Assembly: GCF_002154695.1 (NCBI RefSeq)
Contig: NZ_MTAV01000086.1
Span: forward strand, 1 to 64,000
Direction of reading: 5' to 3'
Length of the DNA: 64,000 bases
DNA from: Nostoc sp. T09
Lineage (GTDB): Bacteria > Cyanobacteriota > Cyanobacteriia > Cyanobacteriales > Nostocaceae
Shown: piece by piece, positions 4,393-60,863 of the stretch
Layout of the letters: each line of letters opens with the position of its first letter
Numbering within the stretch: the stretch's first letter is position 1
Notes under the pieces: model-generated
Databases searched by the model: none
What the model saw: the letters and a program-made list of their open reading frames with translations, nothing else
What the model was told of the DNA's origin: nothing
Made by a program: the position numbers and the translations under genes

Positions 4393-7300
4393 TTAAATTA
4401 ACAACTGTATGTGCGAGCCTTGTTGATTTTTATTGACTTCAATGCGGGCTTGAAATGCTTCTTTGAGGTGGGGCATGTGGGTAACTGTGAGGATGCAAGC
4501 AAAATCAGATGCGATCGCATTAATCGCTGCAATCAAGCGATCGCATCCTTCTGCATCTTGAGTACCAAAACCTTCATCGATAATCAATAACTGCAACGCC
4601 GCCCCCGCGCGCTGCGCTAATAATTTCGCTAGGGCTAAGCGAATGGCAAAGTTAATTCTAAAAGCTTCCCCACCAGAGTAAGTTTCATAGGCTCTTGTCC
4701 CTCTAGCATCGGCAATCAAAATATCTAGAGTATCTATCAGCTTGACATTTTTCTTCGTTGATTTACCATTGCGTCCAGCTTTTTGAGTAATAAATTGTAC
4801 ATGAAGCTGATTAGCGCTGAGTCGTGAAAGAAGTTGATTTGTCTCGGCTTCCAGTTGGGGCAACACATTTTCAATCATCAGCGCTTGGATACCATTTTTA
4901 CCAAACGCCTGCACTAATTCCTGATAAACGCGGTGTTGTTGCTTGCACGCTTGCAATTGCTGTTGCTGTTGTTCGTATTGAATTTGTAATGCTTCCAGTT
5001 GTACCGCTAACTGTTCTAAACGCCCTAACTTGGCTATTTGTTCATCTAGCTGTCGTCTGCGTAGTTGAAGTTGCTGCTCTAAGGCTTGAATTTGAGCAGT
5101 TGGGTTAGCAGTTTCTTCTAACTGCTCCTTAATACTTTCCATTTGGCTAGCGAGGGTTTGCCGTTCAGCCAATCTCGCAGTTTTGGCAGCCTCTAACTCT
5201 TGCGATCGCGCTTGAAGTTGAGGGTAATGCTGCTGGGCTGACAACATCTGTTGATAGCGCAACTGCCAAGATTGATTTTGCCTCACAGCCATCCGCAACT
5301 GATTGTGTTGCTCTGAACTGTAGCCGAGTTCTGTAATGTAGCGATCAAGGGCGGCAATTTGTTGGGCACAGTCAGAGTCTATTTGCTCTTTTTGGATTCT
5401 AGTTTGTAGTTGAGCAATAGCGCCTTGTAATTCTGGCTTGCGTGCTGCTAGTTGGGTTTGGCGCTTGATTGCGTCTTTAATCTGCCCTTGTTTAATTTCT
5501 GCCCACCGCCAGCGCTCAACTTCGCTCCGCGCTAGGGCGTGATCTTGATCATTGTAATTGAGTTGTTGCAGATATTGGTCTAGTTGCCGTAGTTCGGCTT
5601 GCTTGTCGGGAGCGTAATCACCTAATTGTAGCGATCGCTCTAAATGTTGTTTTTCCGCAGCAATTTGTTGTAGCTGTTGTTGAACATCGCTGGTAGCTTC
5701 CAACTGGGCGGCTAACTGTCCCCTTTGTTCGCGTAAAGTATCATAAGTTGCTAATTGCTGGGATATATCTCGATATTCCTTCCTAAGTACCTGAATTTCT
5801 TTGTCTGAGACAGCCATCTGTTCCCGGACTACCCAAAATTGACCCTGTGTATCTTTTAACTCTTCTTCAGTTTTTTCCACCACTCGATTCCAGTGATGTT
5901 CATCAAGGGGACGTTCACATAATGGACAAAGCGCATTCGGATTCTGGAGCATTTGCAGTTTTTGCTCTAGTTCTCCTAAGAGTTTTTCATAATCTCGTTG
6001 GTGCGCTTGTAGCCGTTCGATAAAGTGTCGTCTTTCCTGTCCTTTCTCCTGCACTCGTTGCAAATAAACCCGCTTTTTCTCCAATTCTTCAATTTGGATA
6101 GCCACATCCATAACTGCTTGTTGCAGTTGCGGTTGGCGATGTTGCTGGCGTTGTAGTTGGTTTTCTGTAGTTTCTAGCTGTTCGATACGCGCTGCCAAAC
6201 TAGCATGAAACCGATCGAGTTGGCTTTGTAATATTGTCCGTTGTTGCAACAAGGGAGACACTTGCATTTGCAACTGATCCAGATGCGCCACCCGTTGACG
6301 CGCTGCGGCTAATTGTGCCAAACCAGCTTCTACTTCCCCAGATTTGGTCAGAGTTTGCTGAATTTCTCGCTCTTGTTGCTGCAATGCTTCTAATTGTGCT
6401 TGGGCTTGTTGCAGTTGTCGTTCAATTTCGTGAATTTGTTTGGTAAGCTGCTGTTGCTTTTGTTGACGATTTTGTTGAGCGCGGGTAAATTCTTCAAATT
6501 TGGTAGCAAAAGCTTCTTCTTGAGATTGCAGATTTTGATATTGAAGATATCCGGCTTTGATCTGGGCTTCTTGACTTAATATCTTTTCTAATTCTGCAAT
6601 TTGACTTCTCACTGCTAACTGCTCTTGTTGGAGGCGATCGCAGTCTTGGGTAAGATTTTGGTATTGCTGCCTTACAAAATTCAGTTGTTCTACTTTTGTT
6701 TGGCGTTGGTGCTGCACAACTTGCAAACTTTGTAATTGAATCGTCTCAAAAGCTTGCACCTGTTGCAGTTGATTGAGTTCTGCTTCTAACTCTGCTGTTT
6801 GCGCCTGAGTAGTCTCACGTTGTTGTAGCTGAATTTTAATCGACTCTAAAGAACGCTCCAATTCCTCTGCCCGTGCTTTAAACTGACGAGACGATTCCTT
6901 TGCCCGTTCTTCCAAATCATCGTACTGATTGAGTTTCAATAACTCTGCTAAAATTTCTTTGCGTTCAGTAGGACGCTTGAGCATGAATTCATCTGCACGA
7001 CCTTGACGCAGGTAGGCAGAGTTAATAAATGTATCGTAATCCAGCTTGATATGTTCTAAAATCAAATCTTGTGTTGCTCTGACACCTTTGCCAGTCAGAG
7101 GGCGAAAACCAGAGGGAGTTTCAATTTGAAATTCTAAGACACTAGTTCCACTCCGCACACGAGTGCGAATTACTCGGTATTTTTGCTGGTTACTTTGGAA
7201 AGTGAAATCAACCCGAACTTCTTTAGAGCCTGTATGAATTACATCATCTTCAGCAGCGGCACGGCTTTCACCCCAAATTGCCCAAGTGATCGCTTCGAGA

Positions 7301-7419
7301 AGGGAAGATTTACCCGCACCATTGGAACCACAAATACAAGCTGTATGCAAACCACGAAAATCTAAAGTTGCCTCACGGTAACTGAGGAAATTTTTAAGAA
7401 TTAGTTGTACTGGGATCAT
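4393..7419 (-). CDS. sbcC: SbcC-type SMC nuclease ATPase subunit
   Basis: SbcC is the Rad50-like ATPase of the SbcCD complex, which opens and degrades hairpin and blocked DNA ends during replication and repair. The 1008-residue protein has an N-terminal Walker A (CGSNGAGKSSLLEA, about residues 30-43), two very long glutamine-rich coiled-coil arms, a central zinc hook CPLCERPL near residue 498, the ABC signature YSGGEAFRINFAIRLALA near residue 913, and Walker B LLIIDEGFGTQD near residue 946. All ATPase parts are present and the length is normal. The partner nuclease gene sbcD is not in the window. The start MIPVQLILKNF fits the family N-terminus exactly. Confidence 0.93.
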   Translation of the reverse strand: MIPVQLILKNFLSYREATLDFRGLHTACICGSNGAGKSSLLEAITWAIWGESRAAAEDDVIHTGSKEVRVDFTFQSNQQKYRVIRTRVRSGTSVLEFQIETPSGFRPLTGKGVRATQDLILEHIKLDYDTFINSAYLRQGRADEFMLKRPTERKEILAELLKLNQYDDLEERAKESSRQFKARAEELERSLESIKIQLQQRETTQAQTAELEAELNQLQQVQAFETIQLQSLQVVQHQRQTKVEQLNFVRQQYQNLTQDCDRLQQEQLAVRSQIAELEKILSQEAQIKAGYLQYQNLQSQEEAFATKFEEFTRAQQNRQQKQQQLTKQIHEIERQLQQAQAQLEALQQQEREIQQTLTKSGEVEAGLAQLAAARQRVAHLDQLQMQVSPLLQQRTILQSQLDRFHASLAARIEQLETTENQLQRQQHRQPQLQQAVMDVAIQIEELEKKRVYLQRVQEKGQERRHFIERLQAHQRDYEKLLGELEQKLQMLQNPNALCPLCERPLDEHHWNRVVEKTEEELKDTQGQFWVVREQMAVSDKEIQVLRKEYRDISQQLATYDTLREQRGQLAAQLEATSDVQQQLQQIAAEKQHLERSLQLGDYAPDKQAELRQLDQYLQQLNYNDQDHALARSEVERWRWAEIKQGQIKDAIKRQTQLAARKPELQGAIAQLQTRIQKEQIDSDCAQQIAALDRYITELGYSSEQHNQLRMAVRQNQSWQLRYQQMLSAQQHYPQLQARSQELEAAKTARLAERQTLASQMESIKEQLEETANPTAQIQALEQQLQLRRRQLDEQIAKLGRLEQLAVQLEALQIQYEQQQQQLQACKQQHRVYQELVQAFGKNGIQALMIENVLPQLEAETNQLLSRLSANQLHVQFITQKAGRNGKSTKKNVKLIDTLDILIADARGTRAYETYSGGEAFRINFAIRLALAKLLAQRAGAALQLLIIDEGFGTQDAEGCDRLIAAINAIASDFACILTVTHMPHLKEAFQARIEVNKNQQGSHIQLLI

Positions 7420-8059
7420 TGAGGCTATTGCGCCACATTAACTTTTAATGATTAACAGTAAGGATGTACTTCTTGTTAGTTTAGCTATCTACATATCAGT
7501 ATTCTAGTCTTGAAGACTTCAATTTTACAAAATTTAACAATATAATGAGCCGTTTTTTCTTGTTGACTGAAAGATTTTTGTCAAACTCAAAGAAAAATGA
7601 AACTTTACCTCGGTTGACTGAGGAGAAGATTGGCTAGTAGGGAAGGAGGAGATTTTTGATTGTTAACTTCTTTATCTGTCAAAGAAGCAGAGGGTAAAGA
7701 GGAATTCTTTTCCCCTAAGTCGTCTAGAGATAACTGGCTAAAGCTTTTGTCATTCACCACGAAAAATCAAATAAACCTCTGCTTGAGCCGCATAGACAGG
7801 AGTAGGAGAGGAAGCGTAACTGCAAATTCGATTTACCTTGGCTGTCTGCTGAGAGTTGACTAAAGTTTTTTCTCTTTACCACAAAAAAATTAAAATTCCC
7901 CAGATTAACCTCCAAAACTTGCCAAGTTGTCAACTGAGTTCATGGGGGATATAGAGGAATTTTCTGTACCAAGCTTTTCTTCCAAGAGTGGGAGCATTCG
8001 ATTTTGTGATTAATCTTCAAAAATTTCAACCCCCACCAATCACTAAAACAGATGTGGCG
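7420..8059. other. Intergenic region upstream of sbcC
   Basis: There is no gene I can support. A minus-strand frame around 7749-7860 gives a protein-like tail ending PTPVYAAQAEVYLIFRGE and a stop, but it has no start codon after the preceding in-frame stop. It could be the end of a decayed gene. A plus-strand frame at 7660-7863 overlaps it and has no family features. Confidence 0.4.
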
Positions 8060-8254
8060 CTAATTGCGATCGCTCTCTTTTAACCTAGACCGAGGTATTA
8101 ACATACCTACGTATGTACCTACCGCAAATTTTGTCAGATCCAGAAATTGAGGACGACTTTTCTCGTCAATAATGGCGAGAGTCAGAGAACCAATCACCAT
8201 AATTAGAGTTACGACAGCCAGCACTTCATCTCTGGAAGGAAATTTCTTGAACAT
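8060..8254 (-). CDS. Small hypothetical membrane protein
   Basis: A 64-residue protein with one clear hydrophobic segment (VLAVVTLIMVIGSLTLAII, about residues 11-29) and a second weaker one (FAVGTYVGMLIP) before a basic end. An AGGAG ribosome-binding site sits 7 nt before the ATG, which supports translation. No family is recognised. It is divergent from the NACHT gene with 159 nt between the starts, so the two could share a promoter region. Whether they are functionally linked is unknown. Confidence 0.65.
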   Translation of the reverse strand: MFKKFPSRDEVLAVVTLIMVIGSLTLAIIDEKSRPQFLDLTKFAVGTYVGMLIPRSRLKESDRN

Positions 8255-8413
8255 GATTTACTCCTAAATCAGTTGATTGACTAAATCTAATGTCTCAACT
8301 AGTTATGGGAGATTTTGCTCAAACTTGGGCTGACATAGCCTAACATTTCCTTACATACGTATAATCTTTAATCTTTAGTTAGACTGGCTTTTAGAGGATA
8401 GTGAGATTAGCCA

Positions 8414-10765
8414 ATGCAAGCATTACCGGGTGACTTTTTGACTCAAATGGCTCGCAAGTATGAGCTTTCGCCAGAGCAAGAGCAAGCTTTTGTTGAACTG
8501 TATAGTAGGGAAAATGAAGACGAACTAGAAGTTGCCGAAGCACTTCATATTTCTCCTACTGCCTTCCGTACTCGAATGACTGGGGTTTACAGTAAGTTCA
8601 GTATTAGTGGTAAAGGCCCAGGTAAATTTTATAGGCTGCACAATTTCTTGTTCAAGGAGTATCAGAAGTCTAATTCTTCTCAAGTTTCAGATATTCTCAA
8701 AAATGACATAGACATAAACGCCGTTGTGCAAGAGGTGCGCGAAAAGTTAAGACCTACTATCCAAGAACGCTGCGGCACAATGCGTGTGCTGGATATGACT
8801 CAGCCAATAACGTTAAATGATATCTACACCAGCGTCAATATATTAGAGAAAATCATTGGAAGACTACGGTTAGGAAGTGATGAATTATTGCAAGATTATA
8901 CAAAAGAGGATTTTGAGCGCTTTGGTCTAAGCAAAATTACTCAAGAACGAGTGCCTGGTCTGAAAGCAGTTAATAAACATTCCAAGCTGATGATTTTGGG
9001 AAAACCAGGAGCAGGTAAAACTACATTTTTGAAGTATTTAGCAATTCAGTGTATTGAAGGTGAGTTTCAGGCTGAACGTGTACCAATTTTTGTCACCCTT
9101 AAACACTTTGCAGAAGCTGGAAACAAATTGGAATTACTTCAATACATTCATAGAGAAGCGATAAATAATATTTTTATAAGAAACAGCATTTTAGAGGCAC
9201 AATTTATTTCAGATATTCAAGATGTAATAATTCATGGACAAGCATTATTTTTATTTGATGGATTGGATGAGGTTAGAGAAGAAGATAACAACCGTATCTT
9301 AAAGGAAATTCGTGAGTTTTCTGATAGGTTCCAAAATAATCATTTCGTGATGACTTGCCGTATTGCAGCGCGAGAATATACCTTTGAGAAGTTTACAGAA
9401 GTAGAAGTTGCAGATTTTGATGATGAACAAATTAATAGTTTTGCAACTAAGTGGTTTCAGAGTAAAGCTGTCAAACCGGAGACTTTTATCAAACTCCTTG
9501 ATGATAATAACCGCATCAAACAACTAGCCGCAAGTCCTCTGCTGCTAACACTCCTGTGTTTGGCCTTTGAAGAGTCAGGTGATTTTCCTGCAAATCGGTC
9601 TGAATTATATAAAGAAGGATTAGATGCTTTATTAAAAAAATGGGATGCCAAGCGAGGAATTCAGCGCGAACAAATTTACAAAAAGTTATCAGTCCAACGC
9701 AAAGAAGATTTACTTAGCAAAATTGCCTTAACTACCTTTGACAACGGGGATTATTTCTTCAAACAGAAAATAGCAGAACAATATATTACAGATTATATTC
9801 GCAACTTACCAGGTGCTAATACTGATGAGGAAGCATTACAACTTGACAGTGAAGAAGTTTTGCGTTCAATTGAACATCATCATGGGTTAGTAGTTGCAAG
9901 AGCAAAAGGAATTTATTCATTTTCACATCTGACATTTCATGAGTATTTTACCGCTAGAGAATTTGTAGTTGTCAGACAGTCATCAGAAGAGGCGTTGCAA
10001 ACTCTGGTTACCCACATTACCGAAAAACGCTGGCGGGAAGGATTTTTGCTAGCAGTTGGAATGTCACCAAATGCAGACAGGTTATTGCTTTTAATGAAAG
10101 AGAAAATTGATGTGCTTGTGGCTAGCGATCAGAGGTTACAACAGTTTCTTATGTGGGTTAAGGAAAAATCTCTTTCCCTTGAGTTTCCTGACAAAATACC
10201 AGCAATTAGAGCTTTTTACTTAGTCCTCGACCGCTCCCTAGATCGCTCCCTCGACCTATCTCTCGACCTCGGCCTCTCCCTCTCCCTCGACCGCGATCTC
10301 TCCCGCTCCCTCGAACTCGACCGCTCCCTCGATGGCTCCTTCGCAATAGCCTGCGCCCTCTCCCGTTCCCTCGCCCTCTCTCGCTCCCTTGATCTCGACC
10401 GCTCTCTTGGCCGCTCCTGCTCCCTCTCTCGCTCCCTCGATCCAGAACTTACGCATTCGCTACAACTACTTAGAGAACAACTTCCAGGCACAAAAGATGA
10501 GAAAAAGTATAAGACATGGTGGTCAATTAATGGTCAGAAGTGGAGAGAGCAATTAAAAAAAGTGATGATTAAATATCGCAATATTGGCCATGATTGGCAG
10601 TTCACTAATGAGCAAAATGAATTACTTCAGCAGTATCATGATGCCAATAAGTTGCTAGTAGATTGCTTAAATAGTGATTGTTATGTCAGCCGTGAAGTTC
10701 GACAGCATATAGAAGCTACCTTACTACTACCCATCGATGATCTTAAGAAGGACCAGCAGCAATAG
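8414..10765 (+). CDS. NACHT-domain STAND NTPase with N-terminal winged-helix-like module and dipeptide-repeat region
   Basis: The 783-residue protein begins with a helix-turn-helix-like module (residues about 1-85: YELSPEQEQAFVELY, VAEALHISPTAFRTRMTGVY) that is common at the N-terminus of cyanobacterial STAND proteins. A linker leads to the NACHT NTPase: Walker A GKPGAGKTT at 196-204, Walker B LFLFDGLDE at 278-286, a TCRIA sensor region and the C-terminal NACHT motif FSHLTFHEYFTA. Residues 605-676 form a 36-unit dipeptide repeat (L/R followed by D/S). A helical tail follows (ending LLLPIDDLKKDQQQ). Bacterial NACHT proteins include anti-phage sensors; a defence role here is inference. It appears monocistronic. 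The ATG follows a weak GAGATT context. Confidence 0.88.
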   Translation: MQALPGDFLTQMARKYELSPEQEQAFVELYSRENEDELEVAEALHISPTAFRTRMTGVYSKFSISGKGPGKFYRLHNFLFKEYQKSNSSQVSDILKNDIDINAVVQEVREKLRPTIQERCGTMRVLDMTQPITLNDIYTSVNILEKIIGRLRLGSDELLQDYTKEDFERFGLSKITQERVPGLKAVNKHSKLMILGKPGAGKTTFLKYLAIQCIEGEFQAERVPIFVTLKHFAEAGNKLELLQYIHREAINNIFIRNSILEAQFISDIQDVIIHGQALFLFDGLDEVREEDNNRILKEIREFSDRFQNNHFVMTCRIAAREYTFEKFTEVEVADFDDEQINSFATKWFQSKAVKPETFIKLLDDNNRIKQLAASPLLLTLLCLAFEESGDFPANRSELYKEGLDALLKKWDAKRGIQREQIYKKLSVQRKEDLLSKIALTTFDNGDYFFKQKIAEQYITDYIRNLPGANTDEEALQLDSEEVLRSIEHHHGLVVARAKGIYSFSHLTFHEYFTAREFVVVRQSSEEALQTLVTHITEKRWREGFLLAVGMSPNADRLLLLMKEKIDVLVASDQRLQQFLMWVKEKSLSLEFPDKIPAIRAFYLVLDRSLDRSLDLSLDLGLSLSLDRDLSRSLELDRSLDGSFAIACALSRSLALSRSLDLDRSLGRSCSLSRSLDPELTHSLQLLREQLPGTKDEKKYKTWWSINGQKWREQLKKVMIKYRNIGHDWQFTNEQNELLQQYHDANKLLVDCLNSDCYVSREVRQHIEATLLLPIDDLKKDQQQ
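10226..10441 (+). repeat. Degenerate hexanucleotide tandem repeat inside the NACHT gene
   Basis: Thirty-six consecutive in-frame 6-nt units of the type (C T/G C)(G A C or T C C) encode alternating Leu/Arg and Asp/Ser pairs: LD, RS, LS and so on, residues 605-676. The tract is C-rich on the plus strand with almost no A, in sharp contrast to the AT-rich flanks. The antisense strand is also open and gives R/E/S-rich shadow frames. Confidence 0.93.
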
Positions 10766-10892
10766 TGAACGTTGAATTAATAAATATTTAGTGTTTTAGT
10801 CCTACAGTTAACTCAAATTTTCTATCTATTACCTATCCATTGCTAACAATTTTAATTTAAGATTATGCTTCCACTTAATCTTTATTTAATGG

Positions 10893-11144
10893 CTAGTTCT
10901 CAGGCACCTTCCAAGAACGCCCTTGACAATAGACATAACCATTTTTAATAGAGATACCAAACATTTGACGCATGATTTTGGCTGCTTCTTTCCTCTCTTC
11001 ATCTGTCAAGTAATCTTCACCCTTAAAACCTGCGCGATAACGTTGAGGATTACCACCAGCATCCACATAACGCTGTTTACCTACTTCTAAAATTTCTTGG
11101 AACCTTGCATACTTTCGTTTTTGTTCTTCAGTCCAGTTCGCCAT
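10893..11144 (-). CDS. Small hypothetical protein, second gene of a two-gene unit
   Basis: Eighty-three residues, soluble and charged (MANWTEEQKRKYARFQEIL at the start, ending GRSWKVPEN). I do not recognise the family. The ATG at 11144 lies two bases after the stop of the upstream small gene, which suggests translational coupling. An alternative TTG at 11159 would overlap that stop and is less likely. The gene is convergent with the NACHT gene, 127 nt away. Confidence 0.6.
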   Translation of the reverse strand: MANWTEEQKRKYARFQEILEVGKQRYVDAGGNPQRYRAGFKGEDYLTDEERKEAAKIMRQMFGISIKNGYVYCQGRSWKVPEN

Positions 11145-11146
11145 AA

Positions 11147-11326
11147 TTACCAGTCCCAACTTGTTGGAACAATATCACCATTTTGCAAAATCATAGCAAT
11201 TGGCAAGACTTGACTGGGAGTATTTATATACCAATTGCCACTCTCTTCATCATAGAAGGTATTCCCGAGTAAATCCAGAGTAGTAAGTGCGTTGACAATC
11301 AGGTATTGTGATTCGCTCGGTTCCAT
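11147..11326 (-). CDS. Small hypothetical protein, first gene of a two-gene unit
   Basis: A 59-codon ORF reading MEPSESQYLIVNALTTLDLL through to DIVPTSWDW, stop TAA, two bases before the ATG of the 83-residue gene. Composition looks coding (few rare residues, a plausible mixed alpha/beta pattern) and the tight junction supports a real pair. No family is recognised. A weak AGGT lies before the ATG. The pair could be a small two-component module such as a toxin-antitoxin set, but nothing in the residues proves that. Confidence 0.6.
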   Translation of the reverse strand: MEPSESQYLIVNALTTLDLLGNTFYDEESGNWYINTPSQVLPIAMILQNGDIVPTSWDW

Positions 11327-11707
11327 CTGTACCTATTCTATAAAATTGATTTGAGTAATTCTAAAGGTAAGAGAAAGCATTTCTTAACTCCTAGCAAATA
11401 AACATACAATATAAGTAAGAGTTCGCTACCAGTCTATTCCCTTCTATTTATGCGAACACAAAGTTGAGGAACAATATCGCTAACCTGAGCGTCACAACAT
11501 ATATAAATACTATTTACAAATTTATACCAACAGCATATTACCTGTATAAATCAGTAGCAAAACCTTAAGGAACAATCGTAAATACTCAGCGTCTTAACAG
11601 TACTTCACCTTCGGAATATCCCTATAGATAGTTCTAAAAATAGCCAGAAACAATCTCAGTAAATTTGCGTCATTAAATATCTCTCAGACATAAACGGAAA
11701 CCCTACT
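11327..11707. other. Intergenic region between divergent genes
   Basis: It separates the minus-strand small pair from the plus-strand secreted-protein gene and must hold both promoters. No repeat, RNA gene or clear operator is visible. Confidence 0.5.
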
Positions 11708-12402
11708 ATGACACGCCTTTATCGTTGGAAATCTGGAACTGCTGCACTGATGGCAATGGCAATTACCACAGGTGCTATTACCCCTCTATTTACCTCTGCT
11801 CCGGCTAGTGCCCAATACAATATTAACCAACCTCGAACAATTACTATTCCGTATAATGTAACGTTGCCTGTTACCTATGAGAAAGAGAAAGTGATTGTGA
11901 ACCCAGGGGAAACTTACCTCTTACCCTGAAAATAGAAAGCGATATTATCGATAGAAACAGACAGGTATTGATTCCTCGTGGAACTGACGTTGTTGGTAGG
12001 CTAGAACCTGTAAACCTAGATGGAAGATATTCTAGCGATAGGAATAATAACAATAATAATAAAGGTGTGCGGTTCGTAGCCCAAGAATTAGTATTTGCCT
12101 CTGGTAAGCGTCAGACAATTAATGCAAGTTCTCGAACAGTTACACAAACTGAAAGAATCTCCAAGGGAACTGATACGGGAAGTATATTAACAGATGCAGC
12201 TATTGGTGCAGGTGCGGCCTCTGTAATTTCGCTAATTACAGGTAACCGCAAAATTGAAGTTTTAGAACCTATTATTGGTGCGGCGGCTGGTGCTGGAGCA
12301 AGTATACTGTTGCGTAAAAAACAAGCTGATGTCTTCGTCTTACGGCCTGAACAGGATTTAGATATTACTTTAAACTCTAGTTTGGTACTATCCCGCTACT
12401 AG
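11708..12402 (+). pseudogene. Frameshifted secreted protein, paralog of the SLH protein downstream
   Basis: The first frame (11708-11929) encodes a signal peptide ending APASAQ and the start of the mature domain, then stops. The second frame (to 12402) continues the same protein: IPRGTDVVGRLEP, KGTDTGSILTDAAIGAG and a C-terminus matching the paralog at 12769-14010 along its length. Near 11917-11920 one C is missing: adding it would read ETYPLTLKIE in line with ETVPLTLTVS of the paralog. This form lacks the SLH repeats. The domain has two glycine-zipper stretches and an IP-G-T / IP-G-S pattern reminiscent of VirB10/TrbI. It is a recent pseudogene or an assembly error. Confidence 0.82.
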
Positions 12403-12768
12403 ACTTAACTCAATTTAAGTCGTGACTTTAATCATCCCCAATCTGCGATCGCCACCTTATTATATGTGTGCGATCGCTTAATTTTTGGCACGTTAAACAG
12501 TCTTATTCTTCAGCAACTATTTTATTCCTGTCTCGTCTTAATTATTCACTGAACTTTGGGCATACTAATTTAGAAGCAGAGTAGATAATAACTCAGGGGC
12601 GAATTACATGATTATCTATTCCCTTTTTTATTTTTATCAATGTTTTTAGTTGAATATATGACTTAAGTAATGGTTTATAAAAACACAGGATAATTGGGAA
12701 CATCTTACTTGATAAATTGTCTAAGTAATTAACAGTAAAACAAATAATTGTATAGGAATTAAAATTCA
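12403..12768. other. Intergenic region between the two secreted-protein paralogs
   Basis: Two GCGATCGC octamers occur near 12446 and 12471. No terminator or promoter is clear and no gene is visible. Confidence 0.5.
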
Positions 12769-14010
12769 ATGTTTGCTTTAAATCGTTGGCAATCTGGAAC
12801 AGCTACACTAATGGCATTGAGCGTCACAGTAGGTACTGTAGCACCCTTCATTACAGCTGCACCTTCTTTTGCTCAAACTACATTTTCTGACGTTTCATCT
12901 AATTATTGGGCAGCACAATTTATTCAACAGTTGTCACAGCGTGGTGTAATTGCAGGATTTCCTGATGGTAGTTTCCGCCCTGAAGAAGCGGTGACACGCG
13001 CTCAATTTGCCGCTATGGTCAACAAAGCTTTTCAAAAATCACAGCAACGGCAAGCAATCAATTTTACTGATGTACCAAGCAACTATTGGGCATACAATGC
13101 CATCCAGCAAGCCTATACCATCGGTTTCTTAGCCGGATACCCTGGTAATCGCTTTGAACCAAATCAAGTGATTCCCCGCCAGCAGGTTTTGGTTTCTCTC
13201 GCTAACGGTTTGGAATATAGTCCAAATAGTACTGTCGAAAGCACTCTGCAATATTTCAATGATGCTTCTAATATTGCTGACTATGCCCGTAGCCCTATTG
13301 CTGCTGCTACTGAAAAGCAAATTGTGGTCAACTATCCTAATGTGAAGTTTCTCAATCCTACAGCAACCGCTACGCGGGCACAGGTAGCTGCTTTTATCTA
13401 TCAGGCTTTAGTTAGTTCCAATCAAGCCTCAGCAATTAACTCTCCCTATGTTGTGTCTGTTCAACCTACCACACCCACACCTGTGGCGGTAACAATTCCT
13501 CAAGGAACTGCTATCCCTGTGAAGTACGATAAGGCTGAAAAAATTCTTGTCACTAAGGATGAAACAGTGCCTTTGACACTGACAGTATCGCAAAATGTGG
13601 TTACGCAAGAAGGATCTGTAGTAATTCCTGCTGGTAGTCAAGTGATTGGTCAACTTAAACCCGCTCAAGGTGGTTCTCAATTTATTGCCCAAAAATTAGT
13701 TTTGACCACAGGTCAGGAATATCAAATTAACGCTACTTCTGAAGTTATTACCAAAAAAGAAACCGTTAATAAAGGTACAAGTACTGGTGCCATTATTCAG
13801 AATACTGTATTGGGCGCAGGAGCTGCGGCTGCGGTATCTGCGGTTACAGGCGATCGCGCTATTGCAACAGAAGAAGTATTGGGTGGCGCTGGGGTTGGCG
13901 CATTGATTGGGTTGTTCTTTGGGAAGAAGAGTGTTGACCTAATTGCAATCGATCCAAACACCGATTTGCAAATGACAATCAATCAAAACTTGTTGGTTTC
14001 GCTCAAGTAA
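12769..14010 (+). CDS. Secreted SLH-domain protein with VirB10/TrbI-like C-terminal domain
   Basis: A 413-residue exported protein. Residues 1-36 are a signal peptide ending APSFAQ. Three S-layer homology motifs follow (FSDVSSNYWAAQFIQQLSQR, FTDVPSNYWAYNAIQQA, and a more diverged YFNDASNIADYARSPIAAA), which normally bind cell-wall polymer. Residues about 250-413 repeat the domain of the upstream paralog: IPQGTAIPVKYD, VVIPAGSQVIGQL, a glycine zipper (VLGAGAAAAVSAVTG; GGAGVGALIGLFFGKK) and a final conserved strand. The IP-G-T ... IPAGS pattern resembles the VirB10/TrbI barrel; this is inference. It probably acts at the cell wall or outer membrane. Confidence 0.85.
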   Translation: MFALNRWQSGTATLMALSVTVGTVAPFITAAPSFAQTTFSDVSSNYWAAQFIQQLSQRGVIAGFPDGSFRPEEAVTRAQFAAMVNKAFQKSQQRQAINFTDVPSNYWAYNAIQQAYTIGFLAGYPGNRFEPNQVIPRQQVLVSLANGLEYSPNSTVESTLQYFNDASNIADYARSPIAAATEKQIVVNYPNVKFLNPTATATRAQVAAFIYQALVSSNQASAINSPYVVSVQPTTPTPVAVTIPQGTAIPVKYDKAEKILVTKDETVPLTLTVSQNVVTQEGSVVIPAGSQVIGQLKPAQGGSQFIAQKLVLTTGQEYQINATSEVITKKETVNKGTSTGAIIQNTVLGAGAAAAVSAVTGDRAIATEEVLGGAGVGALIGLFFGKKSVDLIAIDPNTDLQMTINQNLLVSLK

Positions 14011-22076: not shown

Positions 22077-22379
22077 ATGGCCAAAAAGAGCATGATTGAG
22101 CGCGAGAAAAAACGCGCCAAAATGGTAGAAAAGTATGCTGAGAAGCGAGAATCGTTGCAGATAGACTTCCAAAACGCCGAATCGCCCCTTGACAAGCTAG
22201 AAATTCACCGGAAAATTCAACAACTACCCCGTAACAGCGCACCTAGCCGTCGCCGTAACCGTTGCTGGGTAACCGGTCGTCCTAGAGGTGTTTATCGTGA
22301 CTTTGGGCTGTCTCGGAACGTTTTGCGGGAATGGGCACACGAAGGACTTTTGCCTGGAGTGGTTAAGTCTAGCTGGTAG
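22077..22379 (+). CDS. rpsN: 30S ribosomal protein S14 (uS14)
   Basis: A 100-residue basic protein of the long, zinc-free (C-minus) S14 class, with the conserved [20 protein letters not shown] segment and the C-terminal SW. It assembles into the head of the 30S subunit. Like most cyanobacterial rpsN genes it stands apart from the main ribosomal operon. A short heptanucleotide repeat begins just after its stop codon. Confidence 0.95.
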
Positions 22380-22380
22380 T

Positions 22381-22408
22381 CATTAGTCATTGGTCATTGG
22401 TCATTAGT
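22381..22408 (+). repeat. Heptanucleotide short tandem repeat (STRR)
   Basis: Four heptamers in a row: CATTAGT, CATTGGT, CATTGGT, CATTAGT, directly after the rpsN stop. Short tandemly repeated heptamers of this kind are characteristic of heterocystous cyanobacteria. Confidence 0.8.
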
Positions 22409-22440
22409 TATTCACTAAGGACAAAGGACAAAGCGCAAAG

Positions 22441-60159: not shown

Positions 60160-60833
60160 AATTCTTCAGAACTTAGTGCTGATCGATAGGCTCTAACTTG
60201 GATGTCAATACCAGTGATTGCAGTGCCAACTACAACAGCATCAGCCCCTAAACCTAAGGCTTTACAAGCCATTTGGGGTGAAGCAATACCACCTTCACAA
60301 ATCACGGGAATGTTTAACTGTTCTACCATCTGGCTCAGGAGTTCCCAACCTGGAGGCTGAAGATGCTTGGTTGAGGCAGTGTAACCAAAAAGAGTCGTTC
60401 CCACAATATCTGCTCCAGCATCCGCTGCTGCTTTTGCCGCCTCAATTGTATCGACATCTGCCATCACTGGCTTATTTAATTCCTGATGAATTCGGGCAAT
60501 CATCTGTGCTACTTTTTCATCACCAGGGCGGCTTCTGATCGTCGCATCTATGGCTACAATGTCTGCGCCAGCTTGCGCCACAGCCACAGCATGATGAAAC
60601 TGTGGCGTAATGTATACATCAAAGCCAGCTATTACTTGCTTCCATAACCCAATAATTGGCACTTTCACACTGGCACGCACAGCGCTAATGTGGTTTGGGG
60701 TATCTATGCGTACACCTACAGCACCATTATTTACAGCAGCTTGTGCCATTGCTGCAATCACTAGCGGTTGATGCAAGGGTGAATCAACAGGGGCTTGACA
60801 GGATACAATTAGTCCTTTTTTTAAGTTTGTCAT
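60156..60833 (-). CDS. nanE: Putative N-acetylmannosamine-6-phosphate 2-epimerase
   Basis: NanE turns ManNAc-6-P into GlcNAc-6-P in sialic-acid or aminosugar use. The 225-residue TIM-barrel has KGLIVSCQAPVDSPLH, VGVRIDTPNHISAVRA, IVAIDATIRSRP, PVMADVDTIEAAKAAADAG and PVICEGGIASPQMACKALGLGADAVVVG. It overlaps ackA by four bases. Other sialic-acid genes are not present here, so the physiological substrate may be a cell-wall or envelope aminosugar. The start codon lies inside a heptanucleotide repeat. Confidence 0.9.
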   Translation of the reverse strand: MTNLKKGLIVSCQAPVDSPLHQPLVIAAMAQAAVNNGAVGVRIDTPNHISAVRASVKVPIIGLWKQVIAGFDVYITPQFHHAVAVAQAGADIVAIDATIRSRPGDEKVAQMIARIHQELNKPVMADVDTIEAAKAAADAGADIVGTTLFGYTASTKHLQPPGWELLSQMVEQLNIPVICEGGIASPQMACKALGLGADAVVVGTAITGIDIQVRAYRSALSSEEL

Positions 60834-60863
60834 TTGTCATTTGTCATTTGTCATTTGTTATTT
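60829..60863 (-). repeat. Heptanucleotide STRR overlapping the nanE start
   Basis: Five heptamers of GTCATTT (last one GTTATTT) lie in a row on the plus strand; on the minus strand they read ATGACAA-type units. The first ATG of the array (60833) is the nanE start codon. Confidence 0.9.

Follow-up and report, generated by a model that had tools for sequence, protein, structure and literature searches.

The 64,000-nucleotide stretch of Nostoc sp. T09 analysed here (contig NZ_MTAV01000086.1, positions 1 to 64,000; hereafter the window) encodes a NACHT-NCH2 nucleoside triphosphatase (NTPase) in which a tract of 36 in-frame hexanucleotide units lies between the NACHT helical region and the C-terminal NCH2 domain. 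Our findings that this tract is a degenerate hexanucleotide array, that the segment in its place is hypervariable in one large group of paralogs and conserved in another, and that among orthologs it changes mostly in steps of 6 nt make it, to our minds, probable on balance that birth and decay of hexamer arrays, with leucine retained at alternate residues, create diversity in the sensor region of a receptor resembling the nucleotide-binding leucine-rich repeat (NLR) proteins.

The protein would then be an NLR-like NACHT switch built from an N-terminal output module, the NACHT NTPase, a helical region, the variable segment and NCH2, with the segment between helical region and NCH2 as its recognition region, possibly for a phage or another non-self ligand. 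In the large paralog group this segment would be renewed by in-frame expansion, contraction and duplication of hexanucleotides, after which point mutation would decay the array into unique sequence. Leucine (or another hydrophobic residue, or arginine) at every second position would be kept while the residues between, the choice of Leu or Arg and the length vary, and the outcome, which selection for diversity may favour, would be an ongoing supply of new sensor surfaces carried by a switch that itself hardly changes. Since each unit spans two codons, a change in unit number keeps the frame as well as the every-second-position pattern.

The tract and its gene

The features of the gene, with the open reading frame (ORF) on the opposite strand, are as follows.

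8414-10765, plus strand: tract-bearing NACHT-NCH2 NTPase gene, 783 aa (ORF with Pfam NACHT and NCH2)
8414-8680, plus strand: N-terminal module, about aa 1-89, predicted to be helical, no Pfam match (boundary estimated from the sequence)
8987-9463, plus strand: NACHT NTPase domain, aa 192-350 (Pfam PF05729, E 6.3e-15, above cut-off)
10208-10219, plus strand: RAFY anchor, aa 599-602, end of the conserved helical region (R599, A600 and F601 nearly invariant, Y602 invariant)
10226-10441, plus strand: hexanucleotide tract of 36 units, aa 605-676, the hypervariable segment
10448-10732, plus strand: NCH2 (NACHT C-terminal helical domain 2), aa 679-773 (Pfam PF22727, E 8.7e-40)
10216-10491, minus strand: antisense ORF, 91 aa, judged a by-product of C-ending codons and not a gene

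As in a NACHT STAND NTPase, the G/K column of the P-loop and the D/E column of Walker B are invariant in the alignment, and we take GKPGAGKTT and LFDGLDEV to be the NACHT motifs of the window protein; NCH2 at its C-terminus places it in the NACHT-NCH2 subfamily. Its best PADLOC match is candidate family PDC-S60 (1.9e-10). A Pfam scan at E 0.1 returned no leucine-rich repeat (LRR) family and the leucines recur at every second residue, so that this is not an NLR in the strict sense; nor did the Pfam scan return WD40. In relatives, the place of the N-terminal module is taken by a weakly matched Cro/C1-type helix-turn-helix (HTH), a trypsin-like peptidase or EAD1, which by analogy with conflict systems would speak for a sensing role, and to judge from its sequence the window protein's own N-terminus may be of HTH nature.

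The tract starts at the first base of codon 605 (10226), and its 216 nt make up 36 hexamers or 72 residues. While coordinates, frame and unit length are thus as given in a preliminary description of this DNA, the period is not strict as claimed there: Leu or Arg fills the odd slot in 31 of 36 units, Asp or Ser the even slot in 29 and both hold in only 27, with 20 different hexamers present, the commonest being CGCTCC (7), CTCGAC (6) and CTCTCC (4). Tandem Repeats Finder reports three imperfect arrays of period 18-24. Across the window and 30 stretches fetched around NACHT genes of the same genome, the tract's DNA lag-6 identity (0.534) tops all 10,312 windows of 180 nt (mean 0.274, sd 0.039, z 6.7); its residue lag-2 identity likewise ranks first among 6,938 windows of 60 aa (stop-to-stop frames of at least 200 aa), followed by the matching segment of a paralog (L179) from the same genome. 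Measured over the tract, lag-6 identity is 0.49 vs 0.32 after synonymous recoding with the gene's own codon usage (z 6.3), and the residue lag-2 score is modest (z 2.3) under the outer boundaries used for family-wide scoring. GC content is 65% as against 37% in the rest of the gene.

That both strands are open had also been pointed out, and the antisense ORF does exist. It is, however, a mere consequence of codon choice, because codons ending in C are read on the other strand as codons with an initial G, none of which can be a stop; we therefore rejected an antisense gene at 10216-10491. An RNA element was rejected as well, since the Rfam scan of 7400-12700 gave no match at gathering score. 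The susceptibility of low-complexity tracts to misassembly, together with the open antisense frame, counts for the view that the tract arose in assembly or is non-coding (a collapsed repeat, an antisense gene or an RNA). Tracts of the same kind nevertheless occur in other, independently assembled genomes, among them genomes of one or two contigs (G149, G187), and on named complete plasmids, which leaves this view an almost negligible probability.

We also consider it highly improbable that a template system, for example a diversity-generating retroelement (DGR), produces the diversity, even though DGRs diversify NACHT-linked sensors in multicellular bacteria (PMC10907252). Searching the tract DNA against its own genome matched only the tract itself, with no second or template copy, and the variable hexamer positions are mainly T/G, G/T and C/A, unlike the mutated adenines of DGRs. 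Nor is a tandem 6-nt structure known as a DGR feature. Five neighbouring ORFs, to which the Pfam scan was limited, include no reverse transcriptase.

Two evolutionary regimes

Using profile hidden Markov models of both conserved sides, we extracted tracts from a RAFY-like anchor to NCH2, with open frames required, and obtained 134 non-duplicate tracts. Among 158 family loci scanned (L021-L178, L021 being the window gene) 24 fall outside this set, mostly because they repeat a gene already included; L047 and L050 offer one anchor only, L170 contains a stop and L171-L178 were fetched later. Anchors are uncertain in L027, L038, L049, L055 and L087-L090. Many tracts are striking dipeptide arrays such as L120, made almost entirely of CTCTCC, CTCGAC and CGAACC; others are of an Ala/Arg/Asp type (L137, L169) or look no different from unique sequence. 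A remark in the preliminary description, that related cyanobacterial NACHT proteins carry Asp/Leu/Ala/Arg-rich tracts at this place, has in this way proved a sound lead.

Members with flank identity to L021 above 0.40 and an ORF above 500 aa (127 of 134) were placed on a tree computed without the tract (quick LG+G4; 37 of 124 inner branches weakly supported) and split by eye into 88 variable, 33 conserved and 6 outlying members. The conserved group has a segment of 69 or 80 residues in 26 cases, whereas the variable group ranges from 20 to 179 (the longest, L038, with an uncertain anchor). In the variable clade, tract identity falls from 0.61 to 0.30 and 0.23 as flank identity goes from 0.91 to 0.83 and 0.74 (20, 87 and 524 pairs), random variable pairs standing at 0.22; in the conserved clade it is 0.99, 0.83 and 0.72 at flank identities of 0.96, 0.85 and 0.76 (14, 12 and 44 pairs). 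Where flanks are 0.8-0.9 identical, tract identity spans 0.07-0.77 in 87 variable pairs and 0.80-0.87 in 12 conserved ones. Ratios of nonsynonymous to synonymous substitution (dN/dS) of 0.00 (L041-L075, L075-L076), 0.08 (L071-L072) and 0.20 (L072-L073) show the segment of conserved pairs to be under strong purifying selection. Both kinds reside in the window's genome (L021, variable; L072, conserved), so the conserved paralogs provide a built-in control. On the tree, the label repetitive or non-repetitive changes at least 19 times, a count made with no shuffle control.

Unit steps and replacement among orthologs

The preliminary description had asked for unit numbers to be compared among orthologs. 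Far from being invariant, number and sequence differ, mostly in 6-nt steps. Seven orthologs (L108, L109, L110, L112, L115, L127, L130), whose flanking DNA is 77-96% identical on one or both sides, have tracts of 84, 84, 84, 26, 117, 112 and 96 aa; six of these lengths are even, and the odd one, L115, carries a one-codon phase shift of the array. The clearest steps come from G151 and G153, two species about 96% identical around the gene: in 26 of 34 bins of 250 nt (8.5 kb) identity is 0.94-1.00, and in the tract it is 0.78 with a 174-nt gap, that is exactly 29 hexamers. The remaining low bins lie in the N-terminal module (0.73, 0.38, 0.78) and in gene parts and the 3' side (0.90, 0.93, 0.91, 0.91).

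In this same pair (L210, G151:C166; L211, G153:C12) the N-terminal module differs too (0.38 in one bin, against 0.96 in the bin preceding the module), and both receptor ends thus change around a more constant NACHT core.

On the 5' side, the repeat gene is adjoined by an SbcC/Rad50-like gene (4393-7419, minus strand), as it is in several orthologs. This side is common to the window and L022, L097, L108, L109, L115 and L130, while in L110, L112 and L127 the match to it is restricted to the vicinity of the gene. Hairpins in repeats are a target of SbcCD, yet the neighbourhood is probably a coincidence.

A further explanation sees the segment as an assembly or multimerisation element, its Leu/polar alternation forming beta or helical stacks whose unit number would tune a threshold and not specificity. 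Length varying mostly in unit steps fits such a role, and the hydrophobic/polar alternation would suit amphipathic strands. We nonetheless hold it to be improbable: wholesale sequence change at similar length and arginine in the hydrophobic slot of 10 of the 36 window units both point to specificity and away from a fixed assembly geometry, while the structural model of the window protein favours neither side.

Origin of the tracts in DNA

Residue lag-2 z reaches at least 3 in 35 of the 134 tracts, and 30 of these 35 also exceed synonymous recoding in DNA lag-6 identity at z above 3 (mean z 6.25); the same excess is found in 18 of 80 tracts with residue lag-2 z below 2 (mean 1.9). Third-position C amounts to 0.55-0.89 in 31 of the 35 repetitive tracts, compared with 0.11-0.25 outside, and is lower in L026, L056, L066 and L114. 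To follow this codon mark we compared four classes, counting 33 tracts as repetitive (32 plus L021, added by hand despite its residue z of 2.3) and 28 of the 33 conserved members (5 outlying ones omitted). Pyrimidine third positions, observed over expected, are 0.82/0.44 in repetitive, 0.75/0.43 in intermediate and 0.70/0.49 in non-repetitive variable tracts, where 28 of 41 have an excess of z above 2, and 0.53/0.47 in conserved paralogs, of which 6 of 28 do. CTC and CTT make up 83%, 75%, 60% and 22% of leucine codons in these four classes and 18-19% elsewhere in the same genes (18% for the non-repetitive variable, 19% for the conserved). The flanks show no pyrimidine excess upstream and a slight one downstream in the repetitive class (0.51 vs 0.46; 6 of 33 above z 2). 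We read the non-repetitive variable tracts as decayed arrays and the codon mark as a fossil of their hexamer origin.

In each of the four classes, and so also in conserved paralogs, even spacings between leucines are over-represented and odd ones under-represented, and the same analysis finds no even-spacing preference in the upstream region or in NCH2. Since conserved paralogs keep this spacing with hardly any trace of the DNA mark, it may be older than the repeats and outlast them. The DNA process itself, hexamer origin with change mostly in 6-nt steps, is well supported.

Structure and weighing of the evidence

The AlphaFold model of the conserved paralog L072 has a mean predicted local distance difference test score (pLDDT) of 83.3, and its segment (aa 595-674 of the model) folds into four helices with block means of 81-92. 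Foldseek matches this model to NLRC4 (2.7e-11), NOD2 (7.3e-11) and NLRP3 (1.5e-9) with TM-scores of at most 0.42, so that the predicted structure of L072 points to an NLR-like fold of switch and helical domains. Going by domain order, the segment would sit where NLRs have their LRRs.

Several findings weigh against birth and decay of hexamer arrays as the source of sensor diversity. When synonymous codons are shuffled within the tract only, mean z drops to 1.13 in the 35 repetitive tracts, hence the signal is mostly that the tract uses its codons uniformly and differently from the gene around it; codon choice and fossil could in principle reflect codon selection confined to this segment. Of 20 pairs examined, only 3 have a tract dN/dS above 1, two of them without a finite dS, and repeats make such estimates unreliable. 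Some close pairs have unrelated tracts (L169-L145, flank 0.865, tract 0.28; L025-L133, 0.865 and 0.26), so that replacement by recombination or very fast divergence is at work as well. Very short tracts (20, 22 and 26 aa) occur, so an intact ORF needs no minimum repeat number. Over the variable clade the parity signal is modest and the counts, coming from related loci, are not independent: 34 even and 13 odd lengths at lag-2 z of at least 2 and 17 even and 24 odd below, with the uncertain anchors kept in, and 25 even and 9 odd (z at least 3) as against 39 even and 34 odd (z below 2) in the wider tract set without them. Moreover, an open frame in the 134 tracts was a condition of their selection and not a result. 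Finally, the window tract is modelled with block mean pLDDT of only 26-40 over aa 611-670, values that would suit a disordered linker or else a segment with a poor alignment.

As to the claim that a 6-nt unit keeps the frame, the 19 loci scored outside the selected set all have tract lengths divisible by 3, which agrees with it, most of them repeating counted loci and L170 holding a stop.

Low pLDDT of the window model and the 20-179 aa range of the variable clade, together with a DNA periodicity that slippage alone could explain, also suit what is the strongest rival, namely a neutral spacer: a linker tolerated in one clade, in which slippage runs free as neither length nor sequence matters. 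We regard this as possible but unlikely. In the 33-gene clade the segment and its flanks are conserved to a similar degree, the L072 model gives it confident helices, and leucine spacing is kept in decayed tracts as well as in tracts with different codon choices. Also, the Leu slot is the less changeable of the two at second codon positions (0.25 vs 0.40) and the more changeable at third positions (0.55 vs 0.44), a comparison over 46 non-independent pairs that favours a constrained scaffold.

Renewal and decay of hexamer arrays in a sensor segment might be taken one step further, to a template-free diversity generator in which hexanucleotide slippage in the NACHT sensor segment of filamentous cyanobacteria would continuously produce arrays with leucine fixed at every second residue and the residues between left free, quickly enough for variation within populations or filaments, so that a colony would carry many specificities before infection. 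To us this is a rather doubtful extension.

Relatives and breadth

The own genome yields 33 NACHT matches at E 0.001, and the window protein finds matches in 35 of 39 genomes searched (its own included) and, under a strict limit (E at most 1e-205, 4 candidates scored per genome), in 65 of 217 family genomes. Eight loci come from GTDB species contigs, the nearest being those of Nostoc sp. 106C (75% identity) and Cylindrospermum sp. NIES-4074 (71%). Such tracts are also found on plasmids of two Nostoc strains and on an Allocoleopsis plasmid; as the latter belongs to the order Coleofasciculales, the phenomenon is not confined to one order. Among the 40 listed of 86 plasmid records, these genes go by names such as NACHT domain-containing protein or NTPase, NACHT domain family protein, hypothetical protein or similar. 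Among plasmid copies with strong repeats, L213 adjoins a type I restriction R subunit gene and L215 has a short integrase gene and an IS5 transposase gene nearby. Two Leptolyngbya boryana plasmids are identical over 3,814 bases, which is no test of instability because their tract is non-repetitive.

With a piece of L120 as DNA query, about 209 nt from the tract and 92 nt from NCH2, matches turned up in 14 of 60 family genomes and included six new loci, four in NACHT-NCH2 ORFs (L171, L172, L174, L175), one with no ORF passing the filter (L173) and one in another architecture (L176). The last (G008:C60:15500-19500) is a STAND-like protein with an FGE-sulfatase domain and a DL-x-R rich tract of similar type, after which comes a hydrophobic stretch; NACHT-NCH2 proteins may hence not be the only ones to show the phenomenon. 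The N-termini of L171 and L038 show an EAD1 domain or a trypsin-like peptidase. A protein search of 60 genomes of the order with the Ala-type tract L169 gave two matches at 1e-6, L177 (a family member, the same gene as L027) and L178 (a low-complexity frame opposite a kinase gene); it is uninformative on breadth, the method seeming insensitive for such tracts.

The idea that actinobacterial NACHT proteins have the same tract went unsupported in the two Streptomyces plasmid proteins checked (L218, L219), with best 60-aa lag-2 identities of 0.19 and 0.24 in non-repetitive sequence. By eye, two distant Streptomyces NACHT proteins end in LRR-like sequence.

Elsewhere in the window

Tandem arrays of 7 nt lie at 22377-22412 (TAGTCAT) and 60826-60863 (TTTGTCA) and resemble the heptameric repeats known from Nostoc. 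The frames 11708-11929 and 11968-12402 resemble, by eye, start and end of the SLH-domain protein at 12769-14010, so 11708-12402 is possibly one broken gene.

Comparison with known systems

The present family bears on the question of how bacterial NLR-like proteins gain new specificities, as a natural experiment in which orthologs at the same genome place resemble one another in their switch parts but differ greatly in their putative sensor segments. A measurable mark, consisting of CTY leucine codons and pyrimidine third positions, points to hexamer-derived segments even after the repeats have decayed, and the whole suggests an uncomplicated means by which bacteria could go on altering the recognition range of a receptor. 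In the literature searched, with partial coverage (few subscription papers or bioRxiv) that does not prove novelty, we found no description of hexanucleotide-derived tracts in cyanobacterial NACHT proteins, nor did the available sections of PMC4773052 and PMC8195603 contain one.

Short-sequence-repeat contingency loci consist of slippage-prone short tandem DNA, and in this they are like the window tract. Unlike in a phase-variable locus, however, change by a 6-nt unit leaves the reading frame intact and would vary sequence and length rather than switch expression on and off.

DGRs drive the diversification of putative conflict-system sensors in multicellular bacteria (PMC10907252, PMC7159879), but they do so by template mutagenesis through reverse transcriptase, whereas the window tract has no template copy in its own genome. 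With antiphage bNACHT proteins (bNACHT25 with NCH1, clade 14 with SNaCT) the window protein shares the NACHT module and a C-terminal region taken as the sensor, in keeping with the introduction of the bNACHT paper, where the C-terminus of STAND/bNACHT proteins is said to sense (PMC12169576); it differs from them in having NCH2 and a variable repeat segment. Plant NLRs comprise highly variable (hvNLR) and conserved classes (PMC8226289, PMC11093987), and so our family resembles them in showing two regimes within one receptor family and variability concentrated in the sensor region, here a putative one; in plants, though, diversity lies within species and in the LRRs, while here it is seen between species and in a hexanucleotide-derived segment.

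Also comparable are the HNWD/NWD STAND proteins of Podospora anserina, in which the WD-repeat domain sets specificity and is extremely polymorphic, unstable and subject to concerted evolution (PMC2873952). Like these, the window protein is a STAND-NTPase receptor with an unstable repeat array, rearranged among orthologs in comparisons between species. The fungal proteins, on the other hand, rely on WD40 repeats and have mutants of changed specificity, whereas the bacterial one relies on a two-residue unit and its specificity is putative.

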